From Verrucomicrobiia bacterium (lineage in GTDB: Bacteria > Verrucomicrobiota > Verrucomicrobiia > Limisphaerales > UBA11358), in NCBI GenBank assembly GCA_025451535.1, contig JANWKE010000183.1, forward strand, positions 1 through 35,521: a stretch of 35,521 nucleotides of DNA. The letters run 5' to 3'. The position numbers and the translations under genes are program-made. Below the pieces are notes generated by a model. That model was given only the letters and a program-made list of their open reading frames with translations, did no database searches and was not told the origin of the DNA. Shown piece by piece: positions 19,332 to 29,441 of the stretch; the first letter of the stretch is position 1; each line of letters begins with the position of its first letter.

Positions 19332-21944
19332 ATGACCGGCACCATCACCAACGAACCCGTCGGCCATCGGCAACCGGCAATCGCCAAAGTGCCGGAACTG
19401 CTCGCGCCGGCCGGCGATTGGGATTGCGCCCGCGCCGCCGTCGAGAACGGCGCGGACGCGATTTATTTCGGCCTCGAGAAGTTCAACGCCCGGATGCGGG
19501 CGCAAAACTTCACCGAAGCTGACCTGCCGAAGCTGATGGAATTTCTTCATCGCCGTGGCGTGCGCGGTTACGTGACGCTTAACACGCTTGTTTTTGAAAA
19601 TGAACTCGCCGATGCCGAAAAATATCTGCGCACCATGATTGCCGCCGGTGTAGATGCGGTCATCGTACAGGATGTGGGCATTTGCAGGCTTATCCGCCGC
19701 CTTTCCCCCGATTTCCCGATTCATGCCTCGACGCAGATGACCATCACCAGCACCGCCGGCATGGAATTCGCCCGCGCGCTCGGCTGCAATCTCGTCGTGC
19801 TCGCCCGTGAATGCTCCATTGCCGAAATTAATAAAATTCGCGCTGCCGACGAAGCGATCTCGTCACCCGTCACCCGTCACCCGTCACTCCCATTGGAGGT
19901 TTTTGTCCACGGTGCTCTTTGCATCGCCTATTCCGGCCAATGCCTGACCAGTGAGGCGCTCGGTGGGCGCTCGGCCAATCGCGGGGAATGCGCCCAGGCC
20001 TGCCGGATGCCCTACGAACTGATTTCCGACAACCAGCTCGTTCCGCTCGGCGATCGGAAATATCTGCTGAGCCCGCAGGACCTGGCCGGGCTGGAAGTTC
20101 TGCCGGATTTGATCCGCGCCGGCGTCGCGTCGTTAAAAATCGAAGGTCGCCTCAAATCGCCTGAATACGTGGCCAATATCACGCGGATTTACCGGCAGGC
20201 CCTGGACAATTTGCGATTTACGAATGACGATTTACGGGCTTGTGGTGAATCGGCTCGTAAATCCGAAATCGTAAATCATAAATACGAAATGGAGATGGCC
20301 TTTTCACGCGGCCTCTACACCGGCTGGTTCGGCGGCACCAACAATCAGCAGCTCGTCCACGCGCGGTTCGGCAAAAAACGCGGCGTGTCCCTCGGCAAAG
20401 TGAAAAAAGTTTTGCGCGACGCCGTGGTGGTCGAACTCGAAGCGCCACTGCAACCTGGCGACGGCGTGGTCTTCGACGCCGGCCGCCCGGAAGCAAAAGA
20501 GGAAGGCGGAAGGGTTTACGAAGTTAAAAATTCAAAACCAAAAATTCAAAATTCGGCGCGCGAGTTGCGTTTCGGCCACGGCGATATTGATTTCTCACGC
20601 ATCCGCGTTGGCGACAGGTTGTGGAAGACGGACGATCCCCGACTGAACCGGCGGCTGCGTCAAAGTTTCGCCGGCGACACGCCGAAATTTCAGCGGCCCA
20701 TTGAAATGGAAGCTCATGGAACGGTCGGCAAACCGCTCACACTGATTACGCGCGACGAATTGGGAAATGTTGCGAAAGTGGAATCCACCATGCCGCTGGC
20801 AAAAGCGGAAAAGCAGCCACTCACAGAAGAAAAGTTGCGCGAACAACTCGGCCGGCTTGGCGGTACACCGTTCAAGTTCGGGGGGTTGAAAAATTGTCTG
20901 AGCGGCGACGTTTTGTTGCCGGTGAGCGAATTGAACCGTCTGCGCCGCGAGACCGTGGCGGAACTGGAGCGTTTGTGGACGTGGCCAAAACGCTGGCAAC
21001 TGAATGAGTGTAGCAGCCGCGGTAACGAGGCTCATCCTTCAACTCCGTTCAGTCAGAGCCTCCTCACGTCAGCTGCTACCCATCCAGAATTGATTGCCCT
21101 GGTTCGCAACCTGCCGCAACTCGAAGCCGCACTGCACTGCGGCGTGACCACGATCTATTGCGAATTTGAAGACCCCAAAAAGTACCGTGAAGCTGTAACG
21201 TTGTTTCACACCGCTCGCGGCCGCGACTCCGCCCTCCGTATTCCGCATTCCGCAATCTTCGTGGCTCCCCCGCGCATCTTCAAGACCGGCGAGGAATGGA
21301 CGCTGGAACAGGTGCGCTCGTGCAACGCGGACGGCTACCTGGTACGCAATTATGACCACCTCAAATTCTTCGCCCACGACCGGCGGATTGGTGATTTCTC
21401 ACTGAACGTGGCGAACCGGTTGGCAGCGGATTATTTCAAAAACCGGTTCGGCCTGGAACGCGTGACGGCGAGTTACGATTTGAATTTTCAGCAACTCGAA
21501 GCGTTATTGCACGCGGCGCCGCCGGATTGGTTCGAAGTGACGATTCACCAGCACATGCCGATGTTTCACATGGAACACTGCGTGTTCTGCGCGTTTCTGT
21601 CGAGCGGCACGGATTTCCGGAACTGCGGCCGTCCGTGCGATCGGCATGACGTCAAACTACGCGACCGCGTGGGCGCCGAACATCCGGTGAAGGCGGACAT
21701 CGGCTGCCGCAACACGGTCTTCAACGCGCTGGCCCAGACCGGCGCGGAGTATGTTTCGCGCATGATTGAACTGGGCGTGCGCCATTTCCGCGTGGAATTT
21801 CTTAACGAAACGCCCGAACAGGTGGCGCGGACGATTGTCCAATATCGCCGACTTCTCCGCGGCGAAATGACCGGCACCCAACTCTGGCGCGAATTGAAAT
21901 TGATCAACCAGCTCGGCGTTACCCGCGGCCAGATCGGGAAATAG
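19332..21944 (+). CDS. U32 peptidase-family protein, RlhA/YdcP-like, with extended C-terminus
   Basis: 870 residues, longer than the roughly 650 of E. coli RlhA, which hydroxylates a 23S rRNA cytidine. The N-terminal U32 domain is clear: PELLAPAGDWDCARAAVENGADAIYFGL, FVHGALCIAYSGQC, NRGECAQACRMPY and SLKIEGRLKSPEYVA. The cysteines of the second and third motifs are those that hold an iron-sulfur cluster in the family. A DUF3656-like collagenase-associated region follows (about 390-560), then a third part with HMEHCVFCAFLS and GRPCDRHDVKL that adds more conserved cysteines. Activity on rRNA or tRNA is inferred from relatives. The gene holds several heptanucleotide tracts and one palindrome at domain boundaries, which account for part of the extra length. 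Confidence 0.85.
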   Translation: MTGTITNEPVGHRQPAIAKVPELLAPAGDWDCARAAVENGADAIYFGLEKFNARMRAQNFTEADLPKLMEFLHRRGVRGYVTLNTLVFENELADAEKYLRTMIAAGVDAVIVQDVGICRLIRRLSPDFPIHASTQMTITSTAGMEFARALGCNLVVLARECSIAEINKIRAADEAISSPVTRHPSLPLEVFVHGALCIAYSGQCLTSEALGGRSANRGECAQACRMPYELISDNQLVPLGDRKYLLSPQDLAGLEVLPDLIRAGVASLKIEGRLKSPEYVANITRIYRQALDNLRFTNDDLRACGESARKSEIVNHKYEMEMAFSRGLYTGWFGGTNNQQLVHARFGKKRGVSLGKVKKVLRDAVVVELEAPLQPGDGVVFDAGRPEAKEEGGRVYEVKNSKPKIQNSARELRFGHGDIDFSRIRVGDRLWKTDDPRLNRRLRQSFAGDTPKFQRPIEMEAHGTVGKPLTLITRDELGNVAKVESTMPLAKAEKQPLTEEKLREQLGRLGGTPFKFGGLKNCLSGDVLLPVSELNRLRRETVAELERLWTWPKRWQLNECSSRGNEAHPSTPFSQSLLTSAATHPELIALVRNLPQLEAALHCGVTTIYCEFEDPKKYREAVTLFHTARGRDSALRIPHSAIFVAPPRIFKTGEEWTLEQVRSCNADGYLVRNYDHLKFFAHDRRIGDFSLNVANRLAADYFKNRFGLERVTASYDLNFQQLEALLHAAPPDWFEVTIHQHMPMFHMEHCVFCAFLSSGTDFRNCGRPCDRHDVKLRDRVGAEHPVKADIGCRNTVFNALAQTGAEYVSRMIELGVRHFRVEFLNETPEQVARTIVQYRRLLRGEMTGTQLWRELKLINQLGVTRGQIGK
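19861..19888 (+). repeat. Heptanucleotide tract (CGTCACC x4) in the rlhA-like gene
   Basis: Four tandem 7-bp units, CGTCACC three times and then CGTCACT. It encodes about residues 177-186 (SPVTRHPSLP), just before the conserved FVHGALC motif. Confidence 0.85.
20214..20290 (+). repeat. Two-armed heptanucleotide tract in the rlhA-like gene
   Basis: Left arm 20214-20234: CGATTTA CGAATGA CGATTTA. Right arm 20256-20290: CGTAAAT CCGAAAT CGTAAAT CATAAAT ACGAAAT. The arms are inverted relative to each other (GATTTACG against CGTAAATC, twice), flanking 21 nt, and could form a long hairpin. It encodes about residues 295-319. Confidence 0.85.
20527..20554 (+). repeat. Heptanucleotide tract (AAAATTC x4) in the rlhA-like gene
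   Basis: Units AAAATTC, AAAACCA, AAAATTC, AAAATTC. AT-rich in a GC-rich gene; encodes about residues 399-407 (NSKPKIQNS). Confidence 0.8.
21010..21079 (+). repeat. 70-bp imperfect palindrome inside the rlhA-like gene
   Basis: Arms of 24 nt (21010-21033 and 21056-21079) begin GTAGCAGC and end GAGGCTC on the left, with the matching inverse on the right; about 18 of 24 positions pair, around a 22-nt loop. It is read in frame as about residues 560-583, between the DUF3656-like region and the last domain. Confidence 0.7.
21222..21256 (+). repeat. Heptanucleotide tract (CCGCATT-like x5) in the rlhA-like gene
   Basis: Units CGCGACT, CCGCCCT, CCGTATT, CCGCATT, CCGCAAT. Encodes about residues 631-641 (DSALRIPHSAI). 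Confidence 0.75.
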
Positions 21945-25457: not shown

Positions 25458-25796
25458 GAGTAAACATTATCCTGCGCTCCCGTAAAATCACGTCGAAAAA
25501 TCAATGAACGACTTTCGCAAGCAAGCGACTTTACCAGGCGTAAAGATTTATACGAACGCGCCGCGCGATTAATCTTTGTTTCATCCGCTTATAGCGGTGT
25601 GGCCGCCACGCAACTTTACGCCGTTTTCATCTGCGGCTAAAATTTTGCCGGATGGAATCCACGCGCACCTAGAACAAGTCGCTCTTTTATCTCCCTCTCC
25701 GCCGCAAAATGGGGGAGAGGGCCGGGGCGAGGGGACAAAGTTCTTGCGGGTGGCACTTTTCCAAATTTCAACCCCGTGTTAGCCTGCGGCTGTAGC
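25458..25796. other. Divergent intergenic region radC / addA-like
   Basis: No gene supported. The only clear structure is the palindrome at 25693-25721. Around 25593-25611 (AGCGGTG, then CCGCCACGC) there is a faint resemblance to the palindromic elements upstream of metF, too weak to call. Promoters for radC and addA must lie here but no good box pair was seen. Confidence 0.4.
25693..25721. repeat. REP-like palindrome
   Basis: CCCTCTCC (25693-25700) pairs perfectly with GGAGAGGG (25714-25721) around a 13-nt loop, followed by CCGGGGCGAGGGG. The layout resembles the extragenic palindromes that many bacteria carry in tens to hundreds of copies. Confidence 0.6.
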
Positions 25797-28700
25797 ATGG
25801 AATCACCCACAACAAGAAATGCCGACGCCCTGACTCCTTCGCAGCAGCAGGCCGTCACCGCGCGCGGCAATGTGTTGATCATGGCCGGGGCAGGCACGGG
25901 AAAAACCCATACGCTCGTCGAGCGTTGCCTGGATTGTCTCCGCCGTGAATCACCGCCCGTTTCGATCGACGAGATGCTCATCATCACGTTCACCGATGCA
26001 GCGGCGGTAGAAGTCCGCCGGCGCATCCGCCGCGAACTGGAGAAAGAAATCCCCCCCCGGCCCGGCGAAGACCATTGGGCCAGGCAGCTCGCGCTCTTCG
26101 ATATCGCGCCCATCGGCACATTGCACAGTTTTTGCCTGAGGCTCGTGCGTGAACATTTTTACGAACTCGGCCTCGACCCGCAGCTGGCCGTGCTCGACAC
26201 GGTCGAGGCTCGTTTGCTCGCGGAGGAAACGCTGGAGGAACAATTCCAATCGCATTACGCCGGGCCAGCCGGGCTCTCCGCCGCCGCGCAATACCTCATT
26301 CAAATTTATGGCAACGGCGACGAACACCCCATCCGCGCGATGCTGCTGCACTTGCATCATTACGCCCAAACGCGGCCTGACGCCGACCGCTGGCTTGCGG
26401 AACAAATAACGCGGTTCGCGTCGCCGGAGCCGATCGAATGGCGCGAGTGGTTCAGTCAAGCCATCCAAAATTGGCGCGAGGAATGGCTGCCGCTCCTGGA
26501 AAATCTAAAGCGTGGAAACGAAAAGGCGGCGGAACTGTTCAAAATCCTTGGGCAAAAGGGCAGCGAGACGACCGCTGAAGTTCTGAAAAGAATCCTTACC
26601 ACAGACGAGAATTATCCGGCGCGCAAAAAAGGCGCACTGCGCAAGCCGCTGGAAAATTTCCTTGCCGATGCCGCTTTCCTGCAGTCACTCATGCCCGTGG
26701 CCGGCGCCCGCGAGCCGCTGGCCGAGGATTGGGACTGGATTCGCGGTCATATGACTGCACTGCTCCAACTGGCGCAGGAATTCGGGGAAAAATTCGGTGA
26801 ACGCAAACGCGCCGACGGCGTTCTGGATTTTCATGATCTCGAACAGTTCGCCTTGAAGCTGCTTTGGGATTCCGCCAACGGCCATCCGACCGCCATTGCC
26901 GAACGTTGGCGCCAAAAAATCCGCTTCGTCTTCGTAGACGAATACCAGGACATCAACGCCGCGCAGGATAAAATCATCCAGGCATTGAGCCGCGATGGCG
27001 GGGAGACCAACCGTTTCCTCGTCGGCGACGTGAAGCAGAGCATTTACCGTTTCCGCCTGGCCGACCCGAAAATCTTCCGTGATTACGCCAATCAATGGCA
27101 CGGAGAAAATGGCCAGGTGATTCCGCTCATGGAAAATTTCCGCAGCCGCGAGAGCCTGCTCGCTTTCGTAAATTCGATTTTTGAGCTGCTCATGCACAGG
27201 GAAGTTGGCGGTGTGGATTACGGCGTGGCGGCGCGATTGCAGTTCGGCGCGCCGGAACAACGGACGGCGCTCAGCCTCGCCCAAAATCCGACGCCACGCG
27301 CGGAATGGCTGGTGCGATTCAAAGGCGGCCGCGGTGACCGCCCGGCGGACGATGGCACCGGCGAAAGTGATTTGGTGGAACTCGAGGAAACCGAAAAAGA
27401 GGCGCGGCTCGTGGCGTACCGGTTACGCGAACTGATCACGCAAAAGCACCAAATTTGGGATGAAGAGAACCATGCCGAACGCACAGCCGAATGGCGTGAC
27501 ATGGCGGTGTTGCTGCGCGCGCCAGCGAACAAGGCCGAGGCGTATGCCAAGGAATTCGAGCGCGCGGGCGTGCCACTGATCGTCGAGCGCGGCGGTTTTT
27601 ACGACAGCACCGAAATCGCCGATCTGCTGAGCCTGCTGCAGCTGCTCGACAATCCGTTGCAGGATGTGCCGGCTATTGCCGTGCTACGCTCGCCGCTGGT
27701 GGGGTTGTCGCTGGATGAACTGGCAACGGTCCGGCTGGCCGCGCCGGAGGTTCAGTTCTGGACGGCGCTGACCAGAGGTCAGAGGTCAGAGATCAGCGGT
27801 CAGAAGTCGGAAATCAGAAATCAGGACAAGACGACGCAGAAAATTGAAAAATTTCTCGAACAATTTTCCCGCTGGCGGAAGCTGGCAAGGCAGGCGTCGT
27901 TGTCACAGTGCCTGGAAAGTGTGCTGGCGGAAACGCATTACGCCGAGTGGCTCCGCTCGCGCCCGCGCGGTGCACAGCGACAGGCAAACGTCGAACGGTT
28001 CCTCGGCCTCGCGCAGCAGTTCGACCAATTCCAGCGGCAGGGCCTGTTTCGCTTTTTGAAATTCATCGAGGCGCAACAGGCGGCCGACGCCGAACCCGAG
28101 GTCGCGGCGGTGGCGGAGGAAAACGCCGTCCGGCTGATGAGCATTCACCAGAGCAAAGGTTTGGAATTTCCGGTCGTGGTGGTCGCCGATCTGGCCAAGC
28201 CGTTCAACGAACAGGACCTGCGCAACGAAATCTTTTTTGATGAACAATTCGGCCTGTGCCCGCGCATCAAACCGCCCCATACCGGCCGGCGTTATCCGAG
28301 CCTGCCGCACTGGCTCGCGCAGCGGCATCAGCGCCGCGAACAACGCGGCGAGGAGTTGCGACTGCTGTACGTGGCGATGACGCGCGCCCGCGACACGCTG
28401 ATTCTCACCGCCACCATTTCGGAGAAAAAATGGGAATCGCTCTGGCTGGAGCCGGAAGCCATTACCACTCAGGCCATTGTCGCCGCGAAAAGTTATGCGG
28501 ATTGGCTGGGACTGTGGTTCGGAGTTCGGGGTTCGGAGTTCGGAGTTCGGAGTTCAACCGAAGGCCAGTTGCCGCATTTGCGCTGGCGAAGGGTGAAAGA
28601 CGAAGCATTGGCGGAGGAATCGGAAATCGGAAACCAGAAATCGGAAATTAAAACTCCGGTGCTCGATCAGGCTACGGCGAAAAGGCTGCGCGCCATGTTG

Positions 28701-29441
28701 TCGTGGGAATATCCGTTCGAGGCAGCGACGCGGCGGGCGGCCAAGTCGTCCGTCACCACGTTGCGGCGGCAGGCGGAGGAACTGGATGACGAAGCAGAAT
28801 CCATGTTTCAGACTTCATCCCGTTTTGGGGACCAGCCTTCCGGGCAACGACCCGGGGATTCGCCCTCAAATCCGCCATCCGCCATCCGCCATCCGCCATT
28901 GACGGCGGCGGCCACCGGCACGGCGCATCACAAGTTTCTTCAGCATTTCTCCTTTGAAAATGTCGGGGGGCTGAAATCGTTTACAGCCGAGGCAAAACGT
29001 CTGGAACACGAAAAAGTTTTGTCGACGGATGAATATGCCGCTTTGGATTTGCAAAGCATTGCGGCGTTCTGGACTTCGTCCGAAGGGAGAAAAATTCTTT
29101 CGCAGCGGAAATGGGTCCAACGTGAGCTGCCGTTCACGGCAAAATTCAGCCCGGCGGAGGTGGACACCATTATTGGCGCGAAAACGCCGCCGGGACTTGA
29201 AGCTGAATTTGTGGTCGTGCAAGGCGTGGCGGATTTGGCGGTATTGCTGCCCGGGGAAATCTGGCTCGTGGATTTCAAGACGGACGCAAGCCCGCCCGGG
29301 GAATTGGTGGCGCGAAAACGGCTCTACGAACCGCAGTTGAAACTTTACGCGAAGGCCCTGGCGCGCATTTATTCGCGGCCGGTCACGAATTGTTGGCTGC
29401 ATTTTCTCACCGCGCGGCAAACGATGGACATTAATATTTAA
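25797..29441 (+). CDS. addA: AddA-like UvrD/REP helicase with C-terminal RecB-type nuclease
   Basis: 1214 residues from the ATG at 25797; a GTG at 25776 is possible. AddA is the helicase-nuclease subunit that processes double-strand breaks with AddB. Helicase motifs in order: Q-motif LTPSQQQAV, Walker A AGAGTGKT (30-37), TFTDAAAVEVRRRI, GTLHSFCLRL, Walker B VFVDEYQD (about 379-386), VGDVKQSIYRFR, MSIHQSKGLEFPVVVV (about 780-795) and LLYVAMTRARDTL. The nuclease domain near the end keeps GVADLAVL, WLVDFKTD (about 1156-1163) and YEPQLKLYAKAL. No AddB gene lies beside it. Four heptanucleotide tracts insert linker peptides at about residues 659-676, 907-920, 941-950 and 1025-1034. Its stop overlaps the stop of the convergent GrpE-like gene within TTAA. 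Confidence 0.9.
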   Translation: MESPTTRNADALTPSQQQAVTARGNVLIMAGAGTGKTHTLVERCLDCLRRESPPVSIDEMLIITFTDAAAVEVRRRIRRELEKEIPPRPGEDHWARQLALFDIAPIGTLHSFCLRLVREHFYELGLDPQLAVLDTVEARLLAEETLEEQFQSHYAGPAGLSAAAQYLIQIYGNGDEHPIRAMLLHLHHYAQTRPDADRWLAEQITRFASPEPIEWREWFSQAIQNWREEWLPLLENLKRGNEKAAELFKILGQKGSETTAEVLKRILTTDENYPARKKGALRKPLENFLADAAFLQSLMPVAGAREPLAEDWDWIRGHMTALLQLAQEFGEKFGERKRADGVLDFHDLEQFALKLLWDSANGHPTAIAERWRQKIRFVFVDEYQDINAAQDKIIQALSRDGGETNRFLVGDVKQSIYRFRLADPKIFRDYANQWHGENGQVIPLMENFRSRESLLAFVNSIFELLMHREVGGVDYGVAARLQFGAPEQRTALSLAQNPTPRAEWLVRFKGGRGDRPADDGTGESDLVELEETEKEARLVAYRLRELITQKHQIWDEENHAERTAEWRDMAVLLRAPANKAEAYAKEFERAGVPLIVERGGFYDSTEIADLLSLLQLLDNPLQDVPAIAVLRSPLVGLSLDELATVRLAAPEVQFWTALTRGQRSEISGQKSEIRNQDKTTQKIEKFLEQFSRWRKLARQASLSQCLESVLAETHYAEWLRSRPRGAQRQANVERFLGLAQQFDQFQRQGLFRFLKFIEAQQAADAEPEVAAVAEENAVRLMSIHQSKGLEFPVVVVADLAKPFNEQDLRNEIFFDEQFGLCPRIKPPHTGRRYPSLPHWLAQRHQRREQRGEELRLLYVAMTRARDTLILTATISEKKWESLWLEPEAITTQAIVAAKSYADWLGLWFGVRGSEFGVRSSTEGQLPHLRWRRVKDEALAEESEIGNQKSEIKTPVLDQATAKRLRAMLSWEYPFEAATRRAAKSSVTTLRRQAEELDDEAESMFQTSSRFGDQPSGQRPGDSPSNPPSAIRHPPLTAAATGTAHHKFLQHFSFENVGGLKSFTAEAKRLEHEKVLSTDEYAALDLQSIAAFWTSSEGRKILSQRKWVQRELPFTAKFSPAEVDTIIGAKTPPGLEAEFVVVQGVADLAVLLPGEIWLVDFKTDASPPGELVARKRLYEPQLKLYAKALARIYSRPVTNCWLHFLTARQTMDINI
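27770..27825 (+). repeat. Heptanucleotide tract (GGTCAGA-like x8) in addA
   Basis: Eight consecutive 7-bp units: GACCAGA, GGTCAGA, GGTCAGA, GATCAGC, GGTCAGA, AGTCGGA, AATCAGA, AATCAGG. Translates to about RGQRSEISGQKSEIRNQ. This is the longest tract in the window. Confidence 0.9.
28517..28558 (+). repeat. Heptanucleotide tract (GTTCGGA x5-6) in addA
   Basis: Units GTTCGGA, GTTCGGG, GTTCGGA, GTTCGGA, GTTCGGA, GTTCAAC. Translates to about FGVRGSEFGVRSS. Confidence 0.9.
28618..28645 (+). repeat. Heptanucleotide tract (AATCGGA x4) in addA
   Basis: Units AATCGGA, AATCGGA, AACCAGA, AATCGGA, then a degenerate AATTAAA. Translates to about ESEIGNQKSEIK. Confidence 0.85.
28870..28897 (+). repeat. Heptanucleotide tract (ATCCGCC x4) in addA
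   Basis: Four identical units of ATCCGCC. Translates to about NPPSAIRHPP, in the linker before the nuclease domain. The only perfectly uniform tract here, so possibly the youngest. Confidence 0.9.

Follow-up and report, generated by a model that had tools for sequence, protein, structure and literature searches.

Four arrays of tandem heptanucleotides lie within a single addA gene of a verrucomicrobium, and the same linkers of related AddA proteins carry heptanucleotide arrays built from other units. The gene is located on a 35,521-bp stretch of DNA, the window (GenBank contig JANWKE010000183.1, assembly GCA_025451535.1; contig C183 of a genome of 4.40 Mb in 188 contigs). Genes are expected to lose microsatellites whose unit length is not divisible by three, but in this uncultured group core enzymes repeatedly contain them, with several arrays per gene. 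We observed an excess of period 7 in the genome, five array sites shared between species, a shared register with different units at most of these sites, one difference of three units between relatives, maintenance of the reading frame, and three arrays at loops modelled with low confidence. We consider it probable that these are heptanucleotide simple sequence repeats (SSRs) of a repeat-prone, Limisphaerales-like verrucomicrobium, and that the arrays arise in permissive loops, become homogenised and decay there, under selection against stop codons and for keeping the frame.

The open reading frame (ORF) matched UvrD_N (E=1.7e-52) and UvrD_C (E=1.2e-29), and its best relative of solved structure was the AddA of B. 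subtilis (PDB 3u44/3u4q, E=1.8e-151). With both UvrD domains, N- and C-terminal, similarity over the full length and a nuclease motif with DFKTD, it is a genuine addA. The GTG start at which it was counted is probably too early, as relatives align from an ATG at 25797 ('MES...'). Its nearest relatives in public genomes were records named Verrucomicrobia, Limisphaerales or Verrucomicrobia subdivision 3. The arrays were located by Tandem Repeats Finder and by direct reading of the letters. All four period-7 tracts described by a first-pass annotation, made from the letters alone, were recovered in this one ORF, each read through three frames and free of stops as described; the ATCCGCC tract had been ended 2 bp too early. 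Three of the arrays are degenerate, and together the four span AddA residues 666-1042, within the second half of the gene. An AlphaFold model of residues 22-1221 had a mean predicted local distance difference test score (pLDDT) of 83.5, with four segments below 50. Array 1 is in coil with such values at residues 672-680, array 3 overlaps a coil of this kind at residues 952-963, and array 4 lies in or beside another at residues 1003-1039; the fourth segment is without an array. The earlier placement of the tracts between conserved motifs, as linkers, was borne out, with three of the four coinciding with or touching the least confident loops. The encoded peptides likely serve at most as tolerated hydrophilic linkers.

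Period 7 dominated well beyond this gene. Approximately 1.8 Mb of the genome was fetched as stretches, and degenerate arrays of periods 4 to 15 were counted in a 1.42-Mb sample from which the window and the contigs picked by heptamer pattern were left out. At a score of at least 12 this sample contained 87 period-7 arrays, compared to 1-13 for each other period, and with the threshold raised to 18 the counts were 25 and 0-1. Comparison with neighbouring periods, which the first-pass annotation had proposed as a check, therefore confirmed that seven is special. Period 6 yielded some low-score matches, which stem from codon structure. In an overlapping 1.18-Mb sample that included the window, exact period-7 arrays of at least three copies were found 23 times, against 0 in fifth-order Markov sequence, and heptamer dimers were the most frequent 14-mers in the fetched sequence. 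The units were diverse: 143 arrays fell into 59 rotation/strand unit classes, led by AAATCGT, AAATCAT, AACTCCG, AAGTCAG and AACATTC. Exact arrays showed a modest mode of length at 29-32 bp, slightly more than four units.

The comparison of genes with intergenic sequence, likewise suggested beforehand, was made in the 1.42-Mb sample with a purpose-built, simple Markov-model gene caller. Array density was 30 per Mb in coding sequence and 204 per Mb in non-coding sequence, a difference of approximately sevenfold. Even so, 35 of the 87 arrays (40%) were located wholly inside genes, and all 35 were free of stops on the coding strand. Five genes of the own-genome sample carried two or more arrays (0.8 expected). 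Genes with several arrays included those for AddB (3), Mfd (3), leucyl-tRNA synthetase (leuS, 3), the beta subunit of phenylalanyl-tRNA synthetase (pheT, 2) and GlnE (2), some of them on pattern-picked contigs, and further AddA (4) and a U32 peptidase of the window. Of 49 genomes of the genus group, 39 had one or more matches to the heptamer pattern; over the order the matches were patchy, and counts exceeded the control in many cases but not in all. An assembly artefact was considered and rejected because arrays recur across many independently assembled metagenome genomes. Contig C49 starts inside a 103-bp AAGTCAG array (L007:1-103), which suggests that long arrays break the assembly and are probably undercounted.

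The same linkers carry arrays in other species. The search for AddA covered 48 further genomes of the genus group plus a sample from the order, and 61 genes were aligned, with one genome per species and an array threshold of score 10 or more; the window's addA is L101 in these comparisons. Arrays were present in 20 of the 61 genes, from 20 species, and amounted to 47 in total; the remaining 41 genes were without a detectable array. All 47 arrays keep the frame, and all 47 fell into five clusters, the homologous linker sites H0 to H4, at approximately residues 97, 679, 921, 953 and 1035 in the numbering of the window's AddA. Random placement gave an average of 21.8 clusters and a minimum of 13. 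We judged clustering by this cluster count and set a binomial P aside, since the sites were defined from the arrays and that test is circular. Depending on the species, the unit at H1 was CAGAGGT, CAGAAGC, AATTCAA, AATTAAA, CAAAGTC or GAATGCG, and at H4 it was ATCCGCC, GCCAATC, AAATCCA, AAACCGG or CGGAAAG. Two genomes placed in other families (L149 and L167) had arrays at H1 and H4 with other units again, and the nearest relative, L121, had an identical or one-letter-variant unit at three of the four sites. On a tree of 59 AddA genes, parsimony required at least 36 changes of presence or absence summed over the five sites, a method that overstates gains if decayed arrays were missed.

Units differ between species, and at most sites the register is shared. 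Tests against the conserved flank were performed on related species, and their p-values are to be taken as a guide only. Register at H1 (left flank), H2 (right) and H4 (right) beat all 2000 random rotations in each case, and at H3 p was approximately 0.003; the same random-rotation test gave no significance for H0 or for H4 measured from the left flank. Units at the same site in different species matched at 4.49 of 7 positions on average, compared to 3.77 for different sites, 3.90 for different sites of one gene and 3.6 for shuffled units. Each site therefore has its own history, and since units of one gene are barely more alike than shuffled ones, it is unlikely that one cassette was copied from site to site within the gene. 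In one clear case array length had changed: at H1, where their flanks are almost the same, L101 has seven units and L121 four, which amounts to exactly 21 bp or seven amino acids. The four H4 units of L101 all end in C and those of L121 all in A, as homogenisation or concerted change predicts. Traces of period 7 were also present in linkers of the genus that have no array, with a weak lag-7 excess (H1 0.297, H2 0.320, H4 0.331, and 0.247 in the rest of the gene) that was clearly weaker outside the genus, in the rest of the order. The linkers of L102 at H3, L105 at H2 and L125 at H1 resemble decayed arrays of equal length, and the first of these reads like a decayed copy of array 3 of the window.

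Linkers with arrays were mostly no longer than those without. Median lengths in residues, array-bearing and array-less, were 20 and 21.5 at H1, 19 and 19 at H2, 29 and 30 at H3, and 23.5 and 19 at H4; at H0 arrays do accompany longer linkers. These similar lengths speak against a simple picture of insertion, and they are the chief point for which ordinary slippage alone does not account. The first-pass annotation had viewed the tracts as possible lineage-specific insertions, and this did not hold: L121 shares units at three of four sites, distant relatives have arrays at matching sites, and the linkers are mostly not longer. It had also called them old and fixed on account of their degenerate units; the degeneracy was confirmed, and the at least 36 changes of presence together with the homogenised units contradict this view in part.

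Coordinates of the heptamer features in the window
Feature	Position	Strand	Details
addA ORF, UvrD-type helicase and nuclease	25776..29441	+	1221 aa counted from GTG 25776
Heptamer array 1, site H1	27773..27824	+	graded CAGAGGT to CAGAAGT to CAGAAAT, ~7.4 units; peptide TRGQRSEISGQKSEIRNQD, after FWTAL
Heptamer array 2, site H2	28517..28555	+	GTTCGGA x5.6; peptide WFGVRGSEFGVRSS, after ADWLGL
Heptamer array 3, site H3	28618..28648	+	AATCGGA x4.4, one AACCAGA; peptide ESEIGNQKSEI
Heptamer array 4, site H4	28870..28899	+	ATCCGCC x4.3, exact; peptide NPPSAIRHPPL, linker before nuclease domain
Heptamer array in U32-peptidase ORF	19861..19887	+	CGTCACC x3.9; peptide SSPVTRHPSL
Degenerate heptamer tract in U32-peptidase ORF	20255..20283	+	TCGTAAA-like
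Degenerate heptamer tract in U32-peptidase ORF	20527..20554	+	AAAATTC-like
Short heptamer tract in U32-peptidase ORF	21235..21254	+	TCCGCAT

We hypothesize that short 7-bp arrays, often of about four units, arise from local sequence throughout the genome. Slippage-type replication errors are the presumed generator; slippage-like events would then homogenise the arrays and change their unit, and point mutation would let them decay. Within genes selection may act as a filter, and the survivors would be arrays with no stop on the coding strand and with length steps that keep the frame (three units = 21 bp = 7 amino acids), located in flexible, tolerant loops. AddA would have five such loops, and five shared places would consequently carry differing arrays in different species. 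Several array-less linkers of the genus may be arrays that have decayed. Three points weigh against this explanation. Simple slippage should lengthen linkers, yet the length of H1-H3 is unchanged even in comparison with distant array-less relatives; a constant length requires either that arrays are ancestral and have decayed or that deletions compensate where length is constrained, and we read it as the product of ancestral arrays, decay and selection on length. Array 2, at H2, occupies a helix end and loop with pLDDT of approximately 80-89 and not a low-confidence loop. Finally, neither the choice of seven nor that of about four units is accounted for.

The constant length could also result from a dedicated writing process that preserves length and overwrites approximately 30 bp with copies of a local 7-mer, for example by stepwise template switching and not by ordinary slippage. 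Such a process would fit array-bearing linkers that are mostly as long as array-less ones, the modest mode in array length, the many different units in use, and the four-unit preference reported independently in Xanthomonas and Nostoc (PMC4692102) and in Geobacter (PMC2700814). The peak in array length is small, however, no enzyme candidate emerged, and the decayed-looking linkers of equal length together with the residual lag-7 signal in the genus allow ancestral arrays plus decay to explain the constant length. We regard overwriting as unlikely, and are equally doubtful of its corollary, a local homogenisation distinct from ordinary slippage and insertion that strikes the same loops repeatedly in core repair proteins of the genus (AddA, possibly also AddB and Mfd). 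A further alternative is a heptamer cassette inserted at target sites in the manner of mobile, GTAG-tagged repetitive extragenic palindromic (REP) elements. The genome contains GTAG-tagged REP-like palindromes (43 near matches, and 0 for the reversed control pattern) and genes for Y1 transposases (seven matches, five above the cut-off), about eight relatives hold a GTAG REP-like sequence at H3 instead of heptamers, and GTAG REPs have been described within repair genes, in some cases at matching sites of related species (PMC3733652). A cassette should make units within a gene more alike than units at the same site in different species, and the opposite was found; there is mostly no net insertion, no flank or terminal repeat is shared, and the four addA arrays show neither palindrome nor tag of the REP or Rickettsia palindromic element kind. 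Insertion is therefore quite improbable.

On/off switching had been raised by the first-pass annotation, and the arrays would then be contingency loci at which gain or loss of one heptamer makes AddA and other genes phase-variable. Seven is not a multiple of three and a one-unit change shifts the frame, tract 1 does differ by three units between L101 and L121, and tandem heptanucleotides are tied to phase variation elsewhere, as reported for Haemophilus HMW1A (PMC8262952). Out-of-frame alleles numbered 0 among the 47 AddA arrays of 20 species, however, and the window's arrays are mostly degenerate and located in the latter half of the gene; a phase-variable locus would be expected to have a long repeat, free of interruptions, close to the promoter or the start of the gene. 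The genes for leucyl- and phenylalanyl-tRNA synthetases, presumably essential, contain similar arrays, and AddA has four arrays and AddB three, so that most changes by one unit would just inactivate the enzyme. We found no support for switches and consider them very unlikely. Hardly more can be said for seven-residue peptide repeats that act as functional linkers with their sequence kept by selection, to which we assign a similarly minimal probability. Linker length is conserved and the H1 peptides share a hydrophilic x-Q-x-S/K-E/K flavour, but the H4 peptides are wholly different by species (NPPSAIRHPP, NRQSPIANHQ, KNPKSKIQNP, KTGNRKPETG) and 41 of 61 AddA genes have no detectable array. Formation, homogenisation and decay of SSRs in permissive loops thus remains our preferred explanation.

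Heptanucleotide arrays, some of them intragenic, are already known from Geobacter, Xanthomonas, Nostoc and Beggiatoaceae. According to Mrazek et al. 2007, as cited in PMC4679880, period 7 is, among repeats of 5-11 nt, the most abundant class in the majority of prokaryotic genomes, and an interaction with the polymerase has been proposed to account for it. Those SSRs resemble ours in the dominance of period 7, the patchy taxonomic spread and the proposed role of slippage; in that cited account multiples of three are likeliest in coding sequence, whereas here 40% of 7-bp arrays are in genes, several per gene and in shared linkers. Geobacter metallireducens has a 49-element family of four tandem heptanucleotides, GGACCGG, with one consensus and read as regulatory RNA (PMC2700814), in contrast to the 59 unit classes and the cross-species turnover of units at fixed sites reported here. 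The GGGAATC arrays of Xanthomonas and GGGGA(C/T)T arrays of Nostoc (PMC4692102) are likewise heptameric, dispersed, degenerate, typically of four units and strongly biased to non-coding sequence, but they are G-rich and form G-quadruplexes; our units are widely varied and mostly lack GGG, and G-runs capable of quadruplex formation are absent from AAATCGT, AACTCCG, AAGTCAG and other dominant units. TAACTGA direct repeats of Beggiatoaceae also form short heptamer arrays at many places of one genome, but with one dominant unit, in intergenic positions upstream of starts (PMC4679880). Intragenic GTAG/CGTC REPs, which include Rickettsia palindromic elements, show that repeats are tolerated in frame within repair and replication genes; recB REPs occupy about the same site in two species, and the verrucomicrobium O. 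terrae is among the genomes richest in such elements (PMC3733652). They are palindromic, and the GTAG ones are attributed to REP-associated tyrosine transposases, unlike the non-palindromic, untagged heptamer arrays with mostly no net insertion. The parallel to the heptanucleotide short tandemly repeated repetitive sequences of cyanobacteria drawn in the first-pass annotation stands as a likeness of kind and fails as to host, which here is a verrucomicrobium. A literature search limited to open-licence papers turned up no account of arrays that share site and register while their units change, and this pattern in core repair genes appears to be new.

Because the sites are shared and the units differ, birth, homogenisation and decay of repeats can be observed against the frame constraint of a protein. 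The arrays point to loops that can vary in sequence in AddA, and probably also in AddB, Mfd and aminoacyl-tRNA synthetases, and the repeated peptides could pass for real domains in annotation. The bias to seven bases and about four units recurs across unrelated phyla.

Several further observations concern the same loops and repeats. The AddB array of this genome is at residues 249-261, and coordinates in G010 suggest an AddB array near residue 261. The H3 linkers of L106, L107, L108, L121, L122, L125, L126 and L127 contain GTAG-REP-like sequence, degenerate in some copies, in place of heptamers, and one permissive loop thus accepts two unrelated kinds of repeat. GC-rich inserts (ccatccgccttcgc...) were found within CAAAGTC heptamers at H1 of L102 and at H2 of L126. 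Their motif CATCCGCCTTCGC had 0 copies in the own-genome sample, and the idea that heptamers flank REP-like elements genome-wide was dropped because these inserts were not repeated there. The U32-peptidase ORF of the window (19332-21944) contains one clear and three weak heptamer tracts that were overlooked in the first pass, and also, in frame, a GTAG-tagged REP-like palindrome, GTAGCAGCCGCGGTAACGAGGC, at 21010-21031 on the forward strand. Neighbouring arrays less than 150 bp apart formed 16 pairs and tended to have the same unit in inverted orientation (clearly inverted in five, direct in one); inverted pairs would form hairpins. Examples of close-set arrays are L008:6816-6903, L093:1236-1325, L027:16070-16142 and L191:17816-17909. 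An intergenic period-7 tract of 156 bp with strongly mixed TCYGNCY-type units is located at L016:5755-5910.

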